Virus record (IMG/VR): IMGVR_UViG_3300049733_000161
Location: 1 to 45,832 of that record
Strand: one strand, 5' to 3'
Origin: a virus
DNA length: 45,832 nucleotides
The notes beneath the pieces are model-generated. The model did no database searches. It was not told the DNA's origin and worked only from the letters and a program-made list of their open reading frames with translations. The position numbers and the translations under genes are program-made. Below, piece by piece: positions 4,249 through 44,106 of this stretch. Position 1 is the stretch's first letter; every line of letters begins with the position of its first letter.

Positions 4249-5633
4249 ACCTCAAGGAGATCCTCGATCGGCAGGAGGCCATCCGGTCCGAGCTGCAGAA
4301 GATCGAGGAGAACCCTGCCGCCGTTGAGGAATCCGACGGCGACTACGTCGACACGCTCGTTGCCGAATACGACTCGCTGGAGACGCGTCGTGTTCCGCTT
4401 GCGGCGCGTGCCGCATCCCTCAACCTGATCATGGCCGGCGCCAAGGAGGAGACCGCCACCGAAGCCGGTGACGACGCTCGCCGTCAGGCCCCGATGCAGG
4501 TGTACCGCAACAAGCGTGACCCGTTCGACGACATGGAGGCCGTTCGCACCCGGACGATGCGTCCGTCGGAGATGCGGGAGCGTGCCCACGACGCGATCGA
4601 GTGGGTGTCCCGCACCCAGTGGGTCGACTTCCCCGACGATCGCGCCGAGCAGGCGACACGGGCCGCGGCTCGTGACGCCGGCATCGCTCGTCACATCTTG
4701 CGAACCGGTAGCCAGGACTACTACGAGGACTTCCGCTCGTACGTCCAGGATCCGGAGGGGTGGGCGCATCGCGCCACGACCGTCGGCACTGGCTCCCTCG
4801 GCTACATGCTGCCGTTCGTGCTCGACCCGACGATCATCCTCTCGAACGATGGTTCGTCGAACCCGTACCGGCGCATCTCCCGCGTCGAGCAGACGACGTC
4901 GAACACGTGGAACGGCGTCACCTCGGCCGGCGTGAACGCGGCGTTCGGTTCGGAGGCCGGTGGAGCGACCGACGCGTCGCCGTCCGTGTCGCAGCTGCAG
5001 ATCACTCCGCAGCGTGCACGGGCGTGGGTGTTCGGCTCGTACGAGTCCCTCGAGGACTCGGATCTCGGGTCGCAGCTTCCGAAGCTGTTCGCCGACGCCA
5101 AGGACCGTCTCGAGGAGGGTGCGTTCGCCACGGGCGCCGGCACCGGCGTCTACCCGCAGGGTGCGATCACCGGTGCGACCACCGGTGAGACGGCGGCAAC
5201 CACCGCCTACGCGGTGGCGGACGTCTACACGCTGCAGGGCCGTCTCGGCCCCAGGTTCCGCAACTCGCAGCGGGCCGCGTGGCTGGCGAACCTCTACTAC
5301 CTGAACAAGACCCGCCAGTTCGACACGTCGGGCGGTTCTTCGTTCTGGGCGAACCTCGGACAAGGGATGCCGGAGCAGCTCCTCGGCGAGCCGGTGTACG
5401 AGTCGTCGTCGATGTCGTCGGCGACGGCAACCGGGTCGAAGGTGCTGCTGTTCGGCGACTTCGAGCAGTTCGTCATCGTGGATCGGGTCGGCATGTCCGT
5501 CCTCTACAACCCGATGGTGATGGCCGCCGCGACCGGCAACCTGCCGACCGGTGAGGCCGGCTGGTTCGCCTTCTGGCGGGTGAGCTCCAAGGTCGCCGTG
5601 TCGACGGCGATGCAGGCGCTGCTCATCAAGTGA
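4245..5633 (+). CDS. Major capsid protein (HK97 fold)
   Basis: Builds the icosahedral shell. The 462-residue length, position after the protease and domain order fit HK97-type capsid proteins. An N-terminal charged coiled-coil delta/scaffold domain (about residues 1-90, starting NLKEILDRQEAIRSEL) is followed by a linker and the shell domain, with YMLPFVLDPTIILSN and the late segment LLFGDFEQFVIVDRVGMSV characteristic of the phage capsid family. The protease probably removes roughly the first 100 residues; the cut site is not visible. RBS AAAGGA; ATGA overlap with the protease gene. Confidence 0.95.
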   Translation: MNLKEILDRQEAIRSELQKIEENPAAVEESDGDYVDTLVAEYDSLETRRVPLAARAASLNLIMAGAKEETATEAGDDARRQAPMQVYRNKRDPFDDMEAVRTRTMRPSEMRERAHDAIEWVSRTQWVDFPDDRAEQATRAAARDAGIARHILRTGSQDYYEDFRSYVQDPEGWAHRATTVGTGSLGYMLPFVLDPTIILSNDGSSNPYRRISRVEQTTSNTWNGVTSAGVNAAFGSEAGGATDASPSVSQLQITPQRARAWVFGSYESLEDSDLGSQLPKLFADAKDRLEEGAFATGAGTGVYPQGAITGATTGETAATTAYAVADVYTLQGRLGPRFRNSQRAAWLANLYYLNKTRQFDTSGGSSFWANLGQGMPEQLLGEPVYESSSMSSATATGSKVLLFGDFEQFVIVDRVGMSVLYNPMVMAAATGNLPTGEAGWFAFWRVSSKVAVSTAMQALLIK

Positions 5634-5748: not shown

Positions 5749-6750
5749 GTGCAACCGCTCACGATCTTCGGCTACCCCCATCAAGCCGACGGTTCCGGCT
5801 ACTACCGGTTCTACCTCCCGTTCAAACACCTCGCCCGCGGCACCGAGCATCGCATCGCCCTGCCGCAGCCGGGTACCCGGTTCACACCGGATCTCGACCA
5901 GGCCGCTGACCTGGACATGATCGTCGGGCAGCGTTTCATCGGCCCCGAAGGTCAAGCCTTGTGGGACGGGTGGAAGACGAAGACGAAGCTCGTCTACGAG
6001 AACGACGACGACGTGCTCCACCCCGACAACTCGTCCGGGTTGGCGCTGTGGCATGACGAGGATATCCGACGCACCTTCTGCCACAACGTGTCGATCTCCG
6101 ACCTGGTCACCGTGTCGACCGAACCGCTGGCCGAGCAGATGCGGCCGCTCAACTCGAACGTGGTCGTCATCCCCAACCACATCGACGGTGACATGCTGTT
6201 CCTCGAACGGCCCCGCCGTGACCGGTTGACGGTCGGTTGGGCTGGCGGCATGTCGCATCTCATCGACTGGATGGAAGCCGCCGACCCGGTCCGTGAGCTG
6301 CTCGAGGCGAACCCGACGATCGACTTCCACTTCTGCGGCACCGACTACTCGCCGTTGTTGAAGATGGCGTGCCGGTTCACGCCTTGGCGTGAGGACACTT
6401 GGTCCTACTTCAAGGCGATCGACTTCGACATCGGGCTCGCCCCGTTGGCGGACACGGTGTTCAACCGGTCGAAGTCGTGGATCAAGGCGCTCGAATACAT
6501 GGCGCTCGGCATCCCGGTCATCGCCTCTGACCGGCCCGCCTACCGCGACATGGTCGTCGACGGGGTGTCCGGGTTCCTGGTGCGCACCGAGGCCGAGTGG
6601 CGGTCACGTCTCAACGATCTGGTGAACGACGAGGCGATGCGTACCGAGATGGGTGCGAAGGGGCGGGAGATCGCCCGTCAGTGGACGATCCAAACCGGTT
6701 GGAAGCTCTGGCGGGACGCGTACGAAGGAGTCGCGAAATGGCAACCATGA
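5749..6750 (+). CDS. Glycosyltransferase, GT4-like (group 1)
   Basis: Likely transfers a sugar from a nucleotide donor. The 333-residue protein has a Rossmann-like N-terminal half and a C-terminal half with the group-1 pattern: VGWAGGMSH in the middle, DIGLAPLADTVFNRSKSWIKALEYMALGIPVIAS split over residues 230-262 (the K...E..A.G.PV signature), then GFLV. It begins at GTG 5749 after GAAGGGA. Its place directly after the capsid gene, in the structural operon, suggests virion protein glycosylation rather than host metabolism; that is inference. It overlaps the next small gene by 13 bases. Confidence 0.85.
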   Translation: MQPLTIFGYPHQADGSGYYRFYLPFKHLARGTEHRIALPQPGTRFTPDLDQAADLDMIVGQRFIGPEGQALWDGWKTKTKLVYENDDDVLHPDNSSGLALWHDEDIRRTFCHNVSISDLVTVSTEPLAEQMRPLNSNVVVIPNHIDGDMLFLERPRRDRLTVGWAGGMSHLIDWMEAADPVRELLEANPTIDFHFCGTDYSPLLKMACRFTPWREDTWSYFKAIDFDIGLAPLADTVFNRSKSWIKALEYMALGIPVIASDRPAYRDMVVDGVSGFLVRTEAEWRSRLNDLVNDEAMRTEMGAKGREIARQWTIQTGWKLWRDAYEGVAKWQP

Positions 6751-20263: not shown

Positions 20264-20337
20264 TGCCCCGCGTCGGTGTGCTGGCGTTGATCGCTCTCGC
20301 CGCGTTCGTGCTCCTCGTCGTCATCGTCGGTGACTGA
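20263..20337 (+). CDS. Tiny single-helix membrane protein (24 residues)
   Basis: Starts at ATG 20263 in a TGATG overlap: MPRVG then a hydrophobic helix (VLALIALAAFVLLVVIV). An alternative in-frame ATG at 20236 would add nine residues. Placed right after the endolysin, it could be a pinholin-like or helper membrane peptide, but its size allows little inference. Confidence 0.45.
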   Translation: MPRVGVLALIALAAFVLLVVIVGD

Positions 20338-21085
20338 ACCGATGGACCCGTACTACAGCGACGAGCTGGTCACCATCTACCACGGCGACTGTCGCGATGT
20401 CCTGCCTACACTCGCCGTCGACGCTGTTGTCACGGACCCGCCCTACGGGACCGGTTACTACGTCACTGACAAGGCCATCCTGACCGGCGAGCTGATGGCG
20501 TCGTGGGTCGAGCAGTACCGAACCGTGATGGTGTTCGGCTACCCGGAACGGCTCGTCGGTCTGTGCGTCGCCGCTGAGGTGGTGCCGGTGGAGTGGGTGA
20601 CGTGGTGGCCGACCAACGGCGCCGTCCGTGGAACCAATCTCAGCGGCCTCTGGAAGGAGACCGAGTGTGTCGCGGCCTTCGGCGAGCACGTTTTCGAAGA
20701 CCTGCGAGTCGAACGTGAGTCGGGATCGTTCCGTCACGACGTGAAACGGTGGGCTGACGACAACAGTCACAAGCGACGGGGTACGTCTCACGGCAATCCC
20801 GAGACCCGCCGCTGCCCCGATGTCTGGCGGGATGCCTCCCCGAATCTCGGTTTCAACATCAAGCGACGGAACCATCCGAACGAGAAGCCGGTCACCGTCA
20901 TGGCTCGCCTACTGGAAGCCACTCCGCCCGGTGTCGTCGCCGATCCGTTCATGGGATCCGGTTCGACGCTCGTCGCCGCCCGCCAGCTCGGCCGACGCTG
21001 CATCGGCATCGAGGTCGAGGAGCGGTACTGCGAGGTGGCGGTACGTCGACTCGATCAGCAAACTCTCGCCCTTGTCGGCGACTGA
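20330..21085 (+). CDS. DNA methyltransferase (N6-A/N4-C, beta class)
   Basis: A 251-residue DNA-modifying enzyme. Catalytic motif IV DPPY is at residues 36-39 and the SAM-binding motif I DPFMGSGSTLVAA begins at residue 205, the IV-then-I order of beta-class enzymes. HPNEKPVTVMARLLE is the usual segment before motif I. It starts at GTG 20330 (overlapping the previous ORF) or ATG 20342. Probably modifies phage DNA late in infection to resist host restriction; no paired nuclease is adjacent. Confidence 0.87.
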   Translation: MTEPMDPYYSDELVTIYHGDCRDVLPTLAVDAVVTDPPYGTGYYVTDKAILTGELMASWVEQYRTVMVFGYPERLVGLCVAAEVVPVEWVTWWPTNGAVRGTNLSGLWKETECVAAFGEHVFEDLRVERESGSFRHDVKRWADDNSHKRRGTSHGNPETRRCPDVWRDASPNLGFNIKRRNHPNEKPVTVMARLLEATPPGVVADPFMGSGSTLVAARQLGRRCIGIEVEERYCEVAVRRLDQQTLALVGD

Positions 21086-36697: not shown

Positions 36698-36921
36698 GTG
36701 TCACCGGTTCCCTGCCTGACTGGGCCACGGCCGAGATGACCCGTCTCGCCGCCGAACGGGACCGGTTGGCTGCCCTCATCGACGCCTGGCGCCCCGTCGT
36801 CGCCGCCGCCGTGTCTGCCGTCGACCGGACCCGCCAAGACGCCCCCTATCACGGACCCGGCGCCACCTGGCTCGACATGGAAACCGCCGTCGACGCACTC
36901 TCCGATGAGGCGAGACCGTGA
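36694..36921 (+). CDS. Hypothetical helical protein (75 residues)
   Basis: GTG 36694, GTGA overlaps. Contains a heptad-like EMTRLAAERDRLAALID and APYHGPGATWLDM. No family recognised. Confidence 0.6.
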   Translation: MSVTGSLPDWATAEMTRLAAERDRLAALIDAWRPVVAAAVSAVDRTRQDAPYHGPGATWLDMETAVDALSDEARP

Positions 36922-38315
36922 CCGCCACCTACCACGTCGGTGACGTCCGCCAAGTCCTCGCCACATTCGACGACGACACGTTCGACCTCGCGTTCACGTC
37001 GCCGCCGTTCCTCGCCCTGCGCAGCTACCTGCCCGCCGACCACCCCGACAAGGCGCTTGAGATCGGATCCGAAGCCACCCCCGGCGAATACCTCCAAACC
37101 CTGCTCGACCTCACCCAAGAATGGGGGCGGGTGCTCACCCGCCACGGGACCCTGGTGGTCGAGCTTGGCGACACCTACGCCGGGAGTGGGGGAGGCGGAG
37201 GCGACTACCTGCCCGACGGTCTGCGAGAGAACCAGCCGGGATTCGGCGGCTCAGCCGAACGGCAACGGGAAGGCAACGCCGCCCACTGGCGGCAGAAGAA
37301 CCGGGAACCCGCCGGTTGGCCGCTCGACAAATCCCTGTCACTCATCCCCACCCTCTACCCCGCCAGCCTCGCCTACGGCCGCAACCTACTCACCGGCCAA
37401 CCCTGCGACCGGTGGCGCATCCGCAACCTCATCGTCTGGCACCGCCCCAACCCGCCCGTCGGCGCACTCGGCGACAAAGTCCGGCCGTCCACCTCGTACC
37501 TGACCGTCGCCTGCAAAGCGAGAGACCGATGGTTCGACCTCGACGCCGTGCGGGGGCCCATGAATGATCACTCACTCCGCTATTGGGAGAACGGATCGAA
37601 GGCGCGAGACGGGTTTACGGACCGGAAAGATGCGTACGAACGCGACGGGTCCAATCCCCCCAACCCCGCCGGCGCGCCGCCGCTCGACGCCTGGTTCGAC
37701 CAATGGGACCCCACCAACCCCCACGACGTGTGGACCATCCCCACCCAACCCTACAAGGGCGCCCACTACGCCACGTTTCCGTATTCGTTGGCGAAACGAG
37801 TCATCGAGATGTGCTGCCCCCGGCAGGTGTGCCAGACGTGTGGGGAACCGAGCCGGCGGATCACAGAACGCAATGGCAATCTCGATCCGACAAGGCCACA
37901 AGCCCGACGGGCGATGCAACTTGCCGAAGAAGGCGGGCTCACTGAGGAACACTTCGCCGCGATTCGCGCCTTCGGCATCCACGACGCTGGCAAAGCTCAA
38001 GTCACCCAAACCGGAGCAGGCAAGAACAGCGCCGAAGTGAAGCGGCTCGCCGGTGAAGCCAAGACAGTGCTCGGCGGTTACTTCCGGGAGTACCTGATCG
38101 AACGACCGGCGACGTCGGGCTGGACCGACTGCGGCTGCTCCGACGACGGCTCACACTGGCGACCCGGACACATCCTCGACCCGTTCGCCGGCAGCGGCAC
38201 CACGTTGGAAGCCGCCGTCGCCCTCGGCTACACCGCCGTCGGCATCGACCTCGACCCTAGGAACCTCGACCTCGCCCGCCAACGCGTCGGCATGTTCCTG
38301 GAAGTGGCGTCGTGA
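36918..38315 (+). CDS. DNA methyltransferase, N4-cytosine type (SPPF)
   Basis: A 465-residue enzyme with catalytic motif TSPPF (about residues 30-34) near its start and motif I DPFAGSGTTLEAA near the end. Between lie a glycine loop (GSGGGGGDY), DRWRIRNLIVWHRPNPPVG and a cysteine cluster (CCPRQVCQTCGEP, DCGCSDD) suggesting a zinc site. The TSPPF...FAGSGTT combination is typical of N4-C and some N6-A enzymes. Third DNA methyltransferase of the phage. Confidence 0.88.
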   Translation: MTATYHVGDVRQVLATFDDDTFDLAFTSPPFLALRSYLPADHPDKALEIGSEATPGEYLQTLLDLTQEWGRVLTRHGTLVVELGDTYAGSGGGGGDYLPDGLRENQPGFGGSAERQREGNAAHWRQKNREPAGWPLDKSLSLIPTLYPASLAYGRNLLTGQPCDRWRIRNLIVWHRPNPPVGALGDKVRPSTSYLTVACKARDRWFDLDAVRGPMNDHSLRYWENGSKARDGFTDRKDAYERDGSNPPNPAGAPPLDAWFDQWDPTNPHDVWTIPTQPYKGAHYATFPYSLAKRVIEMCCPRQVCQTCGEPSRRITERNGNLDPTRPQARRAMQLAEEGGLTEEHFAAIRAFGIHDAGKAQVTQTGAGKNSAEVKRLAGEAKTVLGGYFREYLIERPATSGWTDCGCSDDGSHWRPGHILDPFAGSGTTLEAAVALGYTAVGIDLDPRNLDLARQRVGMFLEVAS

Positions 38316-40693: not shown

Positions 40694-42055
40694 ATGGCGG
40701 CCGCCGAGGTTCACCCCCTCGTCACGTACGGGGAACGATGCCACATGGGCTCCTGCCCCAACGCGCCCACGGGCAGCCTCGGCGGTCGACCTCTCTGCGA
40801 CGAGCACTACACCCTCGCCGCTGGCGTCCTCGGCACCTGCCACGACTGCGACCAACAGGCCGAGATCCTGTTCCACGGCGTGCCGTACTGCGCCTTCCAC
40901 CTCGACCTCGCCACCGGAGACCTGGGGGAATTCATCACCGTCAACGGACAGGGAGACGGCGAAGACCCCGGCCCCATCCCCCCCGAAGTCGACCTCGACG
41001 AAGCCGACGAACTCGACCCATCCCTCTACCCGATCGACCTCGGACCGTGGATGAAGGGAGACGCCACGCAACCCCAACCCACCATCCTCGCCCGCCACGA
41101 CCACCGCCGACTCTTCTACGAACAGGCCGTCAACGGCGTCCACGGCGCCTCTGGCGAAGGCAAAGGATGGGTCGCCGTCTACACCATCGCCGAGCTCGTC
41201 CGCGACCGGCGCACCAGCCTCATCCTCGACTACGAAGACGTCGAAGCATCCTGGGCTGCCCGCATGGTCATGCTCGGCATCACCGCCGACGACGCCGACC
41301 GATATGTCATCTACATCCGCCCACAAGTCAAGATCGGGCCCCGCGGCGTCGATCACCTGAAGGCGATCTGCACTGAACGCGACGTGTGCTTCGTCGTCGT
41401 CGACTCCGTCGGCGAGGTGTTCGGCATCGAAGGCATCGACGAGAACAGCGACGCCGAAGTAGGTCCCTGGTTCCGTCACGTACCCCGCCAGATCGCAGAG
41501 CACGGGCCCGCCGTGCTCGTCGTCGACCACTCCACCAAAGCCCACGACAACCCCCTCTACCCGTCCGGCAGCAAGCGCAAGCGAGCCGCGATCACCGGCG
41601 CCAGCTACCTCGCCGAGGCCACCATCCCGTTCGTCAAGGCCACCGCCGAGAAGGCGGGTGGGGGACGGTTGCGGCTCACCTGCGCCAAGGACCGGCACGG
41701 CAACTACCGCCGTGGTGAGGTCGCCGCGAACCTCGTGATGCAAGCCCCGTTCGAGGACGTCGTCGAACTCAACCTGTGGGCACCGACGAAAGAAGACCAA
41801 GGCGACGGCGACCCGGTCGCCGAGATCTTCGCTCGAGCCGCCATCAAGGCCCTCGCCGGCGTCACCGGAACCGTCTCAGGGAACGCCCTCATCGGACTCA
41901 TCAAGGACCGCGGATCGGCTCAGAAGAAGTGGGGCGGCATCGACCTGGCCGTGTCTGACGGACGGATCAAGGAGACCCCTGGACCCGGCCGGCGGCGCCT
42001 GTTCTCACTCCCCGACCCTGTGGATAACCCTGTGATTCCAGGTGATTCTCAGTGA
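40694..42055 (+). CDS. RecA-fold ATPase/helicase-like replication protein with zinc fingers
   Basis: A 453-residue protein. Two N-terminal zinc fingers (Cys16-Cys21-Cys35-His38 and Cys49-Cys52-Cys66-His69), then an AAA_25/RepA-like ATPase with Walker A GASGEGKG (151-158) and Walker B VCFVVVDSVGE (Asp237), followed by VLVVDHSTKA. Similar proteins are phage helicases or primase-associated ATPases. Its 3' end contains the DnaA box and first iterons of the putative origin, a usual place for a self-replication region. Confidence 0.82.
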   Translation: MAAAEVHPLVTYGERCHMGSCPNAPTGSLGGRPLCDEHYTLAAGVLGTCHDCDQQAEILFHGVPYCAFHLDLATGDLGEFITVNGQGDGEDPGPIPPEVDLDEADELDPSLYPIDLGPWMKGDATQPQPTILARHDHRRLFYEQAVNGVHGASGEGKGWVAVYTIAELVRDRRTSLILDYEDVEASWAARMVMLGITADDADRYVIYIRPQVKIGPRGVDHLKAICTERDVCFVVVDSVGEVFGIEGIDENSDAEVGPWFRHVPRQIAEHGPAVLVVDHSTKAHDNPLYPSGSKRKRAAITGASYLAEATIPFVKATAEKAGGGRLRLTCAKDRHGNYRRGEVAANLVMQAPFEDVVELNLWAPTKEDQGDGDPVAEIFARAAIKALAGVTGTVSGNALIGLIKDRGSAQKKWGGIDLAVSDGRIKETPGPGRRRLFSLPDPVDNPVIPGDSQ

Positions 42056-42183
42056 TTCTGGAATCAGGCATTCCGATGTGGTCTCCAAGTGATTCCGTGA
42101 TTCCCCCCTTAGGGGAATCACTCACTGGAACCACTCGGAGCACCCCAACCCGACCCACTCAAGGCAGGAAGCCCCAGAATCAC
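42019..42183 (+). other. Putative replication origin with DnaA box and iterons
   Basis: TGTGGATAA (42019-42027) is a perfect DnaA box on the minus strand. GTGATTC occurs at 42032, 42042 and 42052 (exactly 10 bases apart), then at 42089 and 42097; the inverted form GAATCAC occurs at 42115 and 42177, with a partial GAATCA at 42061. GTGATTCCCC-CCTTA-GGGGAATCAC (42097-42121) is a perfect hairpin. Iterons phased to one helical turn plus a DnaA box strongly suggest an origin, overlapping the end of the helicase gene. Confidence 0.72.
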
Positions 42184-42291
42184 TTGAAGGCACCCGCCGA
42201 CATGGACGCCCGGCCCCGACCGGAGAACCCGACCAGGGAACCCCACCGAGGCCGGACGCAGACAAAGCAAACCACAAGGAGAACCCGACCA
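42056..42291. other. Origin-associated gap
   Basis: No supported gene; an open frame that crosses it in register with the next gene is read only from ATG 42292. The left half is the iteron cluster described separately. The right half (42184-42274) holds no repeat or promoter that I can support, and the RBS AAGGAG near 42275-42280 serves the next gene. Confidence 0.55.
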
Positions 42292-42546
42292 ATGACCCCA
42301 GTCACCATCACCGGCCAGTACGGCGACGACACGTTCGTCGGCGTCCTCGAGAACGGCGCCCGTGTCCGCGTCGCCGGCAACGGCACGTCCGCCCATCTCA
42401 CTGCCATCGTCGATGCCATCGTCGACGGTCCGAAGGTCCCCAAGGGCCAGCCGCAGCCGCAGAAGGCAGACGTCGAGCTCATCCTGTACGTCGACAACGA
42501 GGATGACATCACGGTCCTCCGGACCACCGGGAAGGGCCGCAAGTAG
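42292..42546 (+). CDS. Hypothetical protein after the origin (84 residues)
   Basis: ATG 42292 follows AAGGAG by about 10 bases. Beta-rich (TPVTITGQYGDDTFVGVLEN, VRVAGNGTSAHL) with a C-terminal LILYVDNEDDITVLRTTGKG. An upstream ATG at 42202 is in frame but would add a basic, low-complexity leader. No family recognised. Confidence 0.6.
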   Translation: MTPVTITGQYGDDTFVGVLENGARVRVAGNGTSAHLTAIVDAIVDGPKVPKGQPQPQKADVELILYVDNEDDITVLRTTGKGRK

Positions 42547-44106
42547 GTGACCCAGACCACCCGACGCCGCTCGGCGACCAACGCCACCACCACACAAACC
42601 GACGGCCACCTCTGGCTGTCGGCCCGGTGGCACCGCCGAGCGGCACGGGCCCGATGGCTCCACCGCCACATCACCCGACCCATCATCGACGCCTGGTGGC
42701 GATGGCGAGACGAAACCGCCGCCGTCACCATCGCCCTCGCCACCGCAGCCATCGGAGAACCGGTCGCAGCTCTCGTCGCCGCCCCCGGACTCGGCGCCCT
42801 TGGCGAAACCGTCCTCGGCGAATCCGCCCAACGCCACCGCCGCGTCCGCCCCTACCGTCGCCCCTTCACCGACATCTGCACGGCCAACAACGCCCTGCCC
42901 GCCCCTCGAATCGCCTATGCCCGAGAAGTCCACGCCCCTGACGGCACCCATACCGCCACCATCCTCGACGGTCACCTCCACCGCGGCGACTCGATCCGCC
43001 GCTTTCACGACCTCACCCAAGCGTTCGCCGACGCCTGGCCCGCCCTCACCTGCGAACTACGCCAGCTCGGCCCCGGCAAGTACCGATGGGAGTTCCGTCA
43101 TGCGTCGATGCTCGACCGCGATCTCGTCTTCGACCCGACGCTGGCGGCGACTGTTGACGCCATCCCACTCGGCCAGGATCGTGACGGCGTCCACGAAACG
43201 CTCGACCTCCGGGAAGCCGCGGCTCTGTTCGCTGGGCAACGTGGCGGCGGCAAGTCGACGTCTCTGCGATCGGTCCTCGCCTACCTGATCCCCCTCGTCT
43301 ACCGCAGCGACATCGACCTGCACCTCCTCGACCCCGAACCCGACGGCATCAACGCCATCGACTTCAAACCGTGGGCAGCCACGTTCGCTACCGGCATTCC
43401 CGACGTCCTCGCCGCTCTACGCGACCTGCACCTGCAATCCCAGATCCGTCAACCCCACCCCGGCGACCCGCTGCAAGTCATCGTCTGCGACGAGTTCGGA
43501 CGGCTCGTCACCAACCAGGACAAGAAGCAACGAGACACCGCCCACCACCTCCTCACCGAGCTCATATCGATCGGCCGCAAGCGTGGCTACCCGATGCTTC
43601 TCGCCACTCAGGACGTCCACCGCGACGTCATGCCGTCCCGGTTCATCTCCCAGATCACCCACAGCCTCGTGTTCGCCTCGAGGACGATCGTCGACGCCCA
43701 GGTAGCCGCCGGGCCCGGCATCACCTCCCCCGCAGCCATCCCCTACGGCCAACCCGGACGTGCCGTCCTCGTCGAAGGGTCACGGGAACGGGAGATCCGC
43801 TGCTACCGGCTTCTCGACCTGTCCATGTTGGACAGATACCCCATTCCCCCTGGAATGTCCGACCCGACCCCACAAAGGACCCCAGCCCTCAAAATCGTGT
43901 CCAACCGGACACCCGCTGATCGACTGGCGTCGATCGACGCGATGGGGAGGTCCACTCCTAAGGGGCTGTCGAAACGCGAGGTCGCGGACAGGTTCGGGGT
44001 GTCGGAGAGGACGGTCGCCAGGGACTTCGATGAGCTCGGGTTCGTGAAGGTGAACGGCAGGCATGTGCATCCGGTGCATCTGCGGGCGGAGGTGGCAGCC
44101 AGGTGA
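42547..44106 (+). CDS. FtsK/SpoIIIE-like DNA translocase with C-terminal winged helix
   Basis: A 519-residue protein. After a basic N-terminus and a hydrophobic stretch (TIALATAAIGEPVAALVAAP, about 61-80) comes an ATPase with Walker A AGQRGGGKST (229-238) and Walker B VIVCDEFGRL (Asp315, Glu316), of the FtsK/HerA type. The C-terminus carries a helix-turn-helix (SKREVADRFGVSERTVARDF, about 473-492). Such proteins occur in actinobacterial conjugative elements and some phages. Next to the origin, it may move or partition DNA; whether it is a plasmid-type Tra protein or a replication factor is open. Confidence 0.78.
   Translation: MTQTTRRRSATNATTTQTDGHLWLSARWHRRAARARWLHRHITRPIIDAWWRWRDETAAVTIALATAAIGEPVAALVAAPGLGALGETVLGESAQRHRRVRPYRRPFTDICTANNALPAPRIAYAREVHAPDGTHTATILDGHLHRGDSIRRFHDLTQAFADAWPALTCELRQLGPGKYRWEFRHASMLDRDLVFDPTLAATVDAIPLGQDRDGVHETLDLREAAALFAGQRGGGKSTSLRSVLAYLIPLVYRSDIDLHLLDPEPDGINAIDFKPWAATFATGIPDVLAALRDLHLQSQIRQPHPGDPLQVIVCDEFGRLVTNQDKKQRDTAHHLLTELISIGRKRGYPMLLATQDVHRDVMPSRFISQITHSLVFASRTIVDAQVAAGPGITSPAAIPYGQPGRAVLVEGSREREIRCYRLLDLSMLDRYPIPPGMSDPTPQRTPALKIVSNRTPADRLASIDAMGRSTPKGLSKREVADRFGVSERTVARDFDELGFVKVNGRHVHPVHLRAEVAAR

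Follow-up and report, generated by a model that had tools for sequence, protein, structure and literature searches.

An array of repeats at the end of an ATPase gene

Where does a phage begin to copy its DNA, and which of its proteins recognizes the place? A short array of repeats raises this question in a virus record of 45,832 bases, whose whole length we call the window. The window contains genes for a terminase, a portal, a major head protein, an integrase and a tape-measure protein, and by this gene content looks like a temperate tailed phage. At 42019–42183, spanning the stop codon of a gene for an AAA_25 ATPase, are seven copies of the heptamer GTGATTC together with a DnaA box and a 10-bp hairpin, both perfect. 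Forward copies start at 42032, 42042 and 42052, with an exact period of 10 nt, and then at 42089 and 42097; inverted copies start at 42115 and 42177. An earlier note on this DNA had proposed an iteron-type origin here, and a direct check of the sequence found the DnaA box, the GTGATTC copies and the hairpin each at the place it had given.

The repeats are strongly concentrated. Seven of the nine GTGATTC copies of the 45.8-kb window fall inside 152 nt (42032–42183), where the rate in shuffled sequence (5.4 per 45.8 kb) predicts about 0.02, and the array ranks first among the 8-mer repeat clusters of the whole window. The DnaA box, TGTGGATAA at 42019–42027, is the sole exact TTWTCCACA within the window. 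The hairpin, GTGATTCCCC-CCTTA-GGGGAATCAC, occupies 42097–42121, and its region, folded as single-stranded DNA, outdid 199 of 200 shuffles (z −4.2). The AAA_25 gene ends in a TGA (42053–42055) that sits within iteron 3, which leaves the remaining array in a 236-nt gap (42056–42291). Around it, the segment 42001–42200 has 56% GC, the third lowest value among the 200-nt segments of the stretch, and is not strongly AT-rich, so that a pronounced unwinding element of that kind was not seen. An 84-residue open reading frame separates the array from the gene for an FtsK-like protein (Table 1).

Table 1. Features of the AAA_25 gene, the repeat array and the neighbouring genes (positions in the window)
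Feature	Position	Strand	Basis
AAA_25 (KaiC/RecA-fold) replication ATPase, proposed initiator/helicase	40694–42055	+	Pfam AAA_25, E 1e-10
C-terminal winged helix, residues 374–442, proposed iteron reader	coding 41813–42019	+	predicted structure and co-variation
Helix 3, residues 409–421, recognition helix by position	coding 41918–41956	+	model
DnaA box TTATCCACA, perfect; optional feature among relatives	42019–42027	-	exact match
Iteron 1, GTGATTC	42032–42038	+	exact match
Iteron 2, GTGATTC	42042–42048	+	exact match
Iteron 3, GTGATTC, includes the AAA_25 stop codon	42052–42058	+	exact match
Non-coding gap with most of the putative origin	42056–42291		sequence, GC content
Partial inverted iteron GGAATCA; many relatives have an inverted copy at the equivalent place	42060–42066	-	sequence
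Iteron 4, GTGATTC, opens the tandem pair	42089–42095	+	exact match
Perfect hairpin, arms formed by iterons 5 and 6	42097–42121		sequence and ssDNA folding
Iteron 6, inverted, right arm of the hairpin	42115–42121	-	exact match
Iteron 7, inverted, distal	42177–42183	-	exact match
Small ORF, 84 aa, AAGGAG before the ATG, neighbour; no family match	42292–42546	+	sequence
FtsK/SpoIIIE-like ATPase, weak C-terminal HTH match, neighbour outside the conserved module	42547–44106	+	domain searches

The AAA_25 protein consists of an N-terminal Cys-rich stretch, an ATPase core (residues ~111–362) and a C-terminal winged helix (~374–442), and its predicted structure has a pLDDT above 90 across most of the core and winged helix. 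Fold comparison of the core gave KaiC at Z 21.6; RSF1010 RepA was not among the matches listed in the fold search, and the two may still be kin. The winged helix is modeled as helices 374–388, 396–402 and 409–421 with two strands and, folded alone, gave weak matches to the DNA binders TubR, Zur, LmrR and MarR (best E 0.006). AAA_25 is the only Pfam match of the protein and no NCBIfam model matches it; neither collection gave a Rep_3 or RepA plasmid-initiator family. The N-terminal part shows only the Cys-rich stretch and no known primase domain.

Relatives keep the array and its layout

For comparison we drew on more than 100 relatives among viruses, plasmids and bacterial genomes. Named phages and plasmids include only distant relatives of the AAA_25 protein, and direct scans of viral contigs with the window's AAA_25 and FtsK-like proteins yielded none. 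A search with an alignment of five distantly related AAA_25 proteins, the window's among them, led to 76 loci, and the first set held 71 after near-duplicates and truncated or mis-framed loci had been taken out. We then asked whether the strongest 8-mer cluster of each locus lay within −250 to +400 of the AAA_25 stop. It did so in 57 of the 71 loci, where 4.5 were expected, and lay elsewhere in the other 14. Among 53 further actinobacterial loci the count was 45 against 8.8 expected, in a second set that is not wholly independent because it was found with the first-set alignment and includes a few near-copies; one of its members, L213, has the same repeat and winged helix as L128 of the first set. 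In L169 and L170 the strongest array is ~2.3 kb upstream of the AAA_25 stop (at about 1500–1700), which places it before the gene and not at the 3′ end. A separate kind of repeat occurs in L140, where AGCGACAG is present 27 times in ~240 nt, counting both strands (4737–4978), upstream in the AAA_25 locus and unrelated to its iterons.

The repeat sequence varies by element; the layout is constant across relatives. Four named elements have an iteron array and hairpin where the AAA_25 gene ends, and each uses a different repeat: the Streptomyces plasmid p-XQ-29-C (CCTGCCC), the Streptomyces phage Dagobah (GAACCGGT), the Kineococcus plasmid pKRAD02 (GGGAACCACC) and the Microcystis phage MinS1 (CCTCGTCCC). 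As read by eye, the common layout consists of three direct copies ~10–11 nt apart, an inverted copy, a ~20-nt spacer, a hairpin in which a tandem pair closes on an inverted copy, and finally a distal inverted copy or pair. The window's array matches it.

This placement bears on whether the array could be an operator, through which the AAA_25 protein or another regulator controls the replication operon or the downstream genes, with the origin elsewhere. The repeats do lie between genes on the same strand, and the winged helix resembles the repressor domains of MarR, PadR and Zur. In most of the family, however, the array follows the ATPase gene and does not precede an operon, the genes downstream differ, and in the window we found no sigma-70-like promoter in 41700–42700, a weak test for this host. 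We consider an operator unlikely; autoregulation and origin function can, moreover, coexist.

The hairpins are tied to the repeats. Perfect hairpins with an iteron in their arms occur in 41 of 52 loci, compared to 15.6 expected when the iterons were retained and their positions shuffled. A stable stem directly past a stop codon might also be a transcription terminator or an RNA element of the replication operon, with the surrounding repeats incidental. A T-tract is absent, though, the stem has no Rfam match, and its arms are themselves iterons that change with the others while the loop is kept; we regard this explanation as very improbable. A motif of a C-tract, TA and a G-tract is present on the gene strand in 21 of 71 loci and on the other strand in 10 of 71, with 2.0 expected on each; a strand-specific loop motif is thus only modestly supported. 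As a guess, this motif may be a candidate priming site.

The winged helix and the repeats change together

Which protein would read the repeats? The relatives suggest that this is probably done by the winged helix at the C terminus of the AAA_25 protein. In partial Mantel tests, repeat distance correlated with winged-helix distance given the core, with hand-read repeats (r 0.33, p 0.0005), with automated repeat calls (r 0.185, p 0.0005) and in a thinned set (r 0.108, p 0.024), and core distance had no significant added effect in any of the three. In 33 further loci, repeat distance followed both the core (r 0.255, p 0.0005) and the winged helix (r 0.145, p 0.02). Since both matter there, these tests by themselves do not mark out the winged helix, and the winged-helix specificity of the signal did not fully replicate.

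The best evidence for the winged helix as reader comes from two natural near-identical pairs of loci, L158/L161 and L190/L195 (cores 98–99% identical), in each of which the winged helix and nearly all repeats have switched together and the hairpin loop has been kept. L158 and L161 are 98% identical in the core and 78% in the winged helix; what differs lies mostly in helices 2–3 of the winged helix and in the array, where the repeat ACTGGTTCCC gives way to ACCCGTCCC around an identical hairpin core. L190 and L195 have cores that are 99% identical. Where the recognition helix starts, GKAV is replaced by GKRE, the winged-helix domain has five further changes, and CCGCGCCCC takes the place of GTGCGTCCC as the repeat, with an identical loop. 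The A-V to R-E change aligns to the start of helix 3 in the model of the window protein.

There is also a counter-example: the repeats of L175 and L186 differ, and the winged-helix changes between them are few and small. Two repeat types, AACCGCGCC and AACTGTT, are mixed in the arrays of L181 and L186, to which L175 is a close relative; such mixed arrays may be an origin caught between two specificities. A simple residue-to-base code derived from the first set failed on new loci, and when alignment columns were ranked by mutual information, relatedness confounded the result, with the highest-ranked columns lying in the core.

The earlier note had left the role of initiator to either the helicase-like gene or the FtsK-like gene. 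The AAA_25 ATPase is now favored by the co-variation of its winged helix, by the two paired switches and by the fact that the array stays with its gene. The other candidate would make the array a centromere-like or translocation-guiding site read by the C-terminal HTH of the FtsK-like protein. Its gene begins 364 nt downstream, the HTH match is weak, and repeat arrays do serve mycobacteriophages as parS (PMC7157519). However, an FtsK homolog is present in no related locus, whereas the array stays with AAA_25, and the FtsK-domain protein of p-XQ-29-C is not significantly alignable (E 0.07); we regard such a site as very improbable.

The DnaA box, which the earlier note had taken as a hallmark, has lost weight. 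It is enriched in the first set (6 of 71 loci against 0.47 expected), and in L139, L158 and L161 it closely precedes the first repeats, just as it does in the window, but it is absent from the 56 further loci scanned for it (0/56). Since conservation next to the array does not extend to the FtsK-like gene, and the DnaA box is rare, both would be accessory at most, the box an optional one.

A probable origin with its initiator gene

Taken together, these observations make it very probable that the phage starts its replication at the array, with the adjacent AAA_25 protein as initiator. The proposal of an iteron origin with its initiator encoded alongside thus gains support from the relatives, whose sequences share a conserved array and layout, have an element-specific repeat and show the joint change of repeat and winged helix. 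In relatives, moreover, DnaB_N, Toprim or Prim-Pol domains are found fused to the N-terminal side of this ATPase. These are domains of replication helicases or primases, and the fusions point to a replication role for the ATPase. The module of AAA_25 gene and array is present on two small plasmids as well, and a scan of ten of their proteins found no other known replication-initiator family.

From this comparison we infer origin function, ring assembly, unwinding and the place where priming starts. The winged helix of the ATPase would bind in cis to the GTGATTC iterons at the 3′ end of the gene that encodes it, and the phased direct repeats, the inverted copy and the hairpin dyad would assemble the protein into a ring. 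The KaiC/RecA-like motor would then open and unwind the DNA, and priming would begin nearby. Because the N-terminal part is without a known primase domain, the primase would be supplied by the host or by an unrecognized gene of the window. DnaA possibly assists in this phage; most relatives are without the box.

GC skew was rejected as a means of placing the origin, being too weak and confounded: the cumulative minimum of the window is at 43914, skew rises across the array in only 34 of 56 loci, and the signal is compatible with the array but does not locate the origin. In the window the sign of the skew flips abruptly near 44.0 kb, ~1.8 kb past the array, at the end of the FtsK-like gene.

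More tentatively, and with less than even confidence, we propose that the window represents a modular family of initiators that is widespread in phages and plasmids of actinobacteria. A single protein chain would combine a KaiC/RecA-like motor with a priming module that can be exchanged (DnaB_N, Toprim or Prim-Pol) and with a winged helix that evolves fast and gives the origin its identity, and a C-rich loop with TA in the iteron hairpin would mark the start of priming. An origin of this kind would provide a recognizable signature for a group of phages, prophages and plasmids of actinobacteria, few of whose replication starts are known, and would point to their initiators as well. The natural switches L158/L161 and L190/L195 make protein–DNA specificity directly testable, and the sequence specificity of the origins suggests a way in which related elements could share a host. 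Once tested, origins of this type could become new plasmid replicons for actinobacterial genetics.

Comparison with known replication systems

A literature search, in which subscription journals were scarcely covered, found no paper naming AAA_25 together with iterons. SaPI Rep and SCCmec Cch2 have a C-terminal origin-binding domain and an origin in the same order as here (PMC7581432). As with SaPI Rep/ori, the iteron array of the window is directly downstream of the putative initiator gene, and the likeness may extend to a C-terminal domain as the putative iteron reader, a role that co-variation supports here. The SaPI Rep and Cch2 helicases belong to the DUF927 or D5/Primase_Cterm families, whereas the motor here is a KaiC/RecA-like AAA_25 domain; hosts here are mostly actinobacteria, and the array includes a hairpin built from iterons. 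The window's system would thus work like SaPI Rep/ori, on a different ATPase fold.

The replication protein ORF904 of the Sulfolobus plasmid pRN1 likewise has a C-terminal winged helix, and a stem-loop origin just downstream of its gene is required for pRN1 replication (PMC4234260). In contrast to the window, pRN1 has a Prim-Pol/SF3 protein and a ~100-nt stem-loop with no iterons (PMC4234260). RSF1010 oriV, as summarized in the same paper, resembles the present array in its iterons, unwinding helicase and short priming stem-loops. According to that summary, the iteron reader RepC, the helicase RepA and the primase RepB′ are separate, whereas reader and motor are apparently fused here.

In actinobacteria, the repAB locus of the Streptomyces plasmid pWTY27 has short direct repeats (GTGGGAAC/TTCCCAC) and replicates bidirectionally, and its RepA binds inverted repeats in vitro (PMC3583192). 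Like the present loci it is an actinobacterial replication locus, and its repeats resemble the GTGGTTCCC class of our set; by this resemblance pWTY27 may be an experimentally studied relative. RepAM of actinomycete ICEs has a DUF3631 domain (PMC3218068), which was not found in the window protein. With AAA_25 as the only Pfam match, assignment of the window protein to Rep_3 or RepAM was rejected.

Other genes of the window

Two DNA methyltransferase genes, both phrog_67, are at 36918–38315 and 20330–21085 of the window. In the product of the former, 222 profile positions are spread over 457 residues, and a large insertion therefore seems to split the domain. A glycosyltransferase-like gene (phrog_7162) lies at 5749–6750, among the structural genes and directly past the gene for the major head protein.
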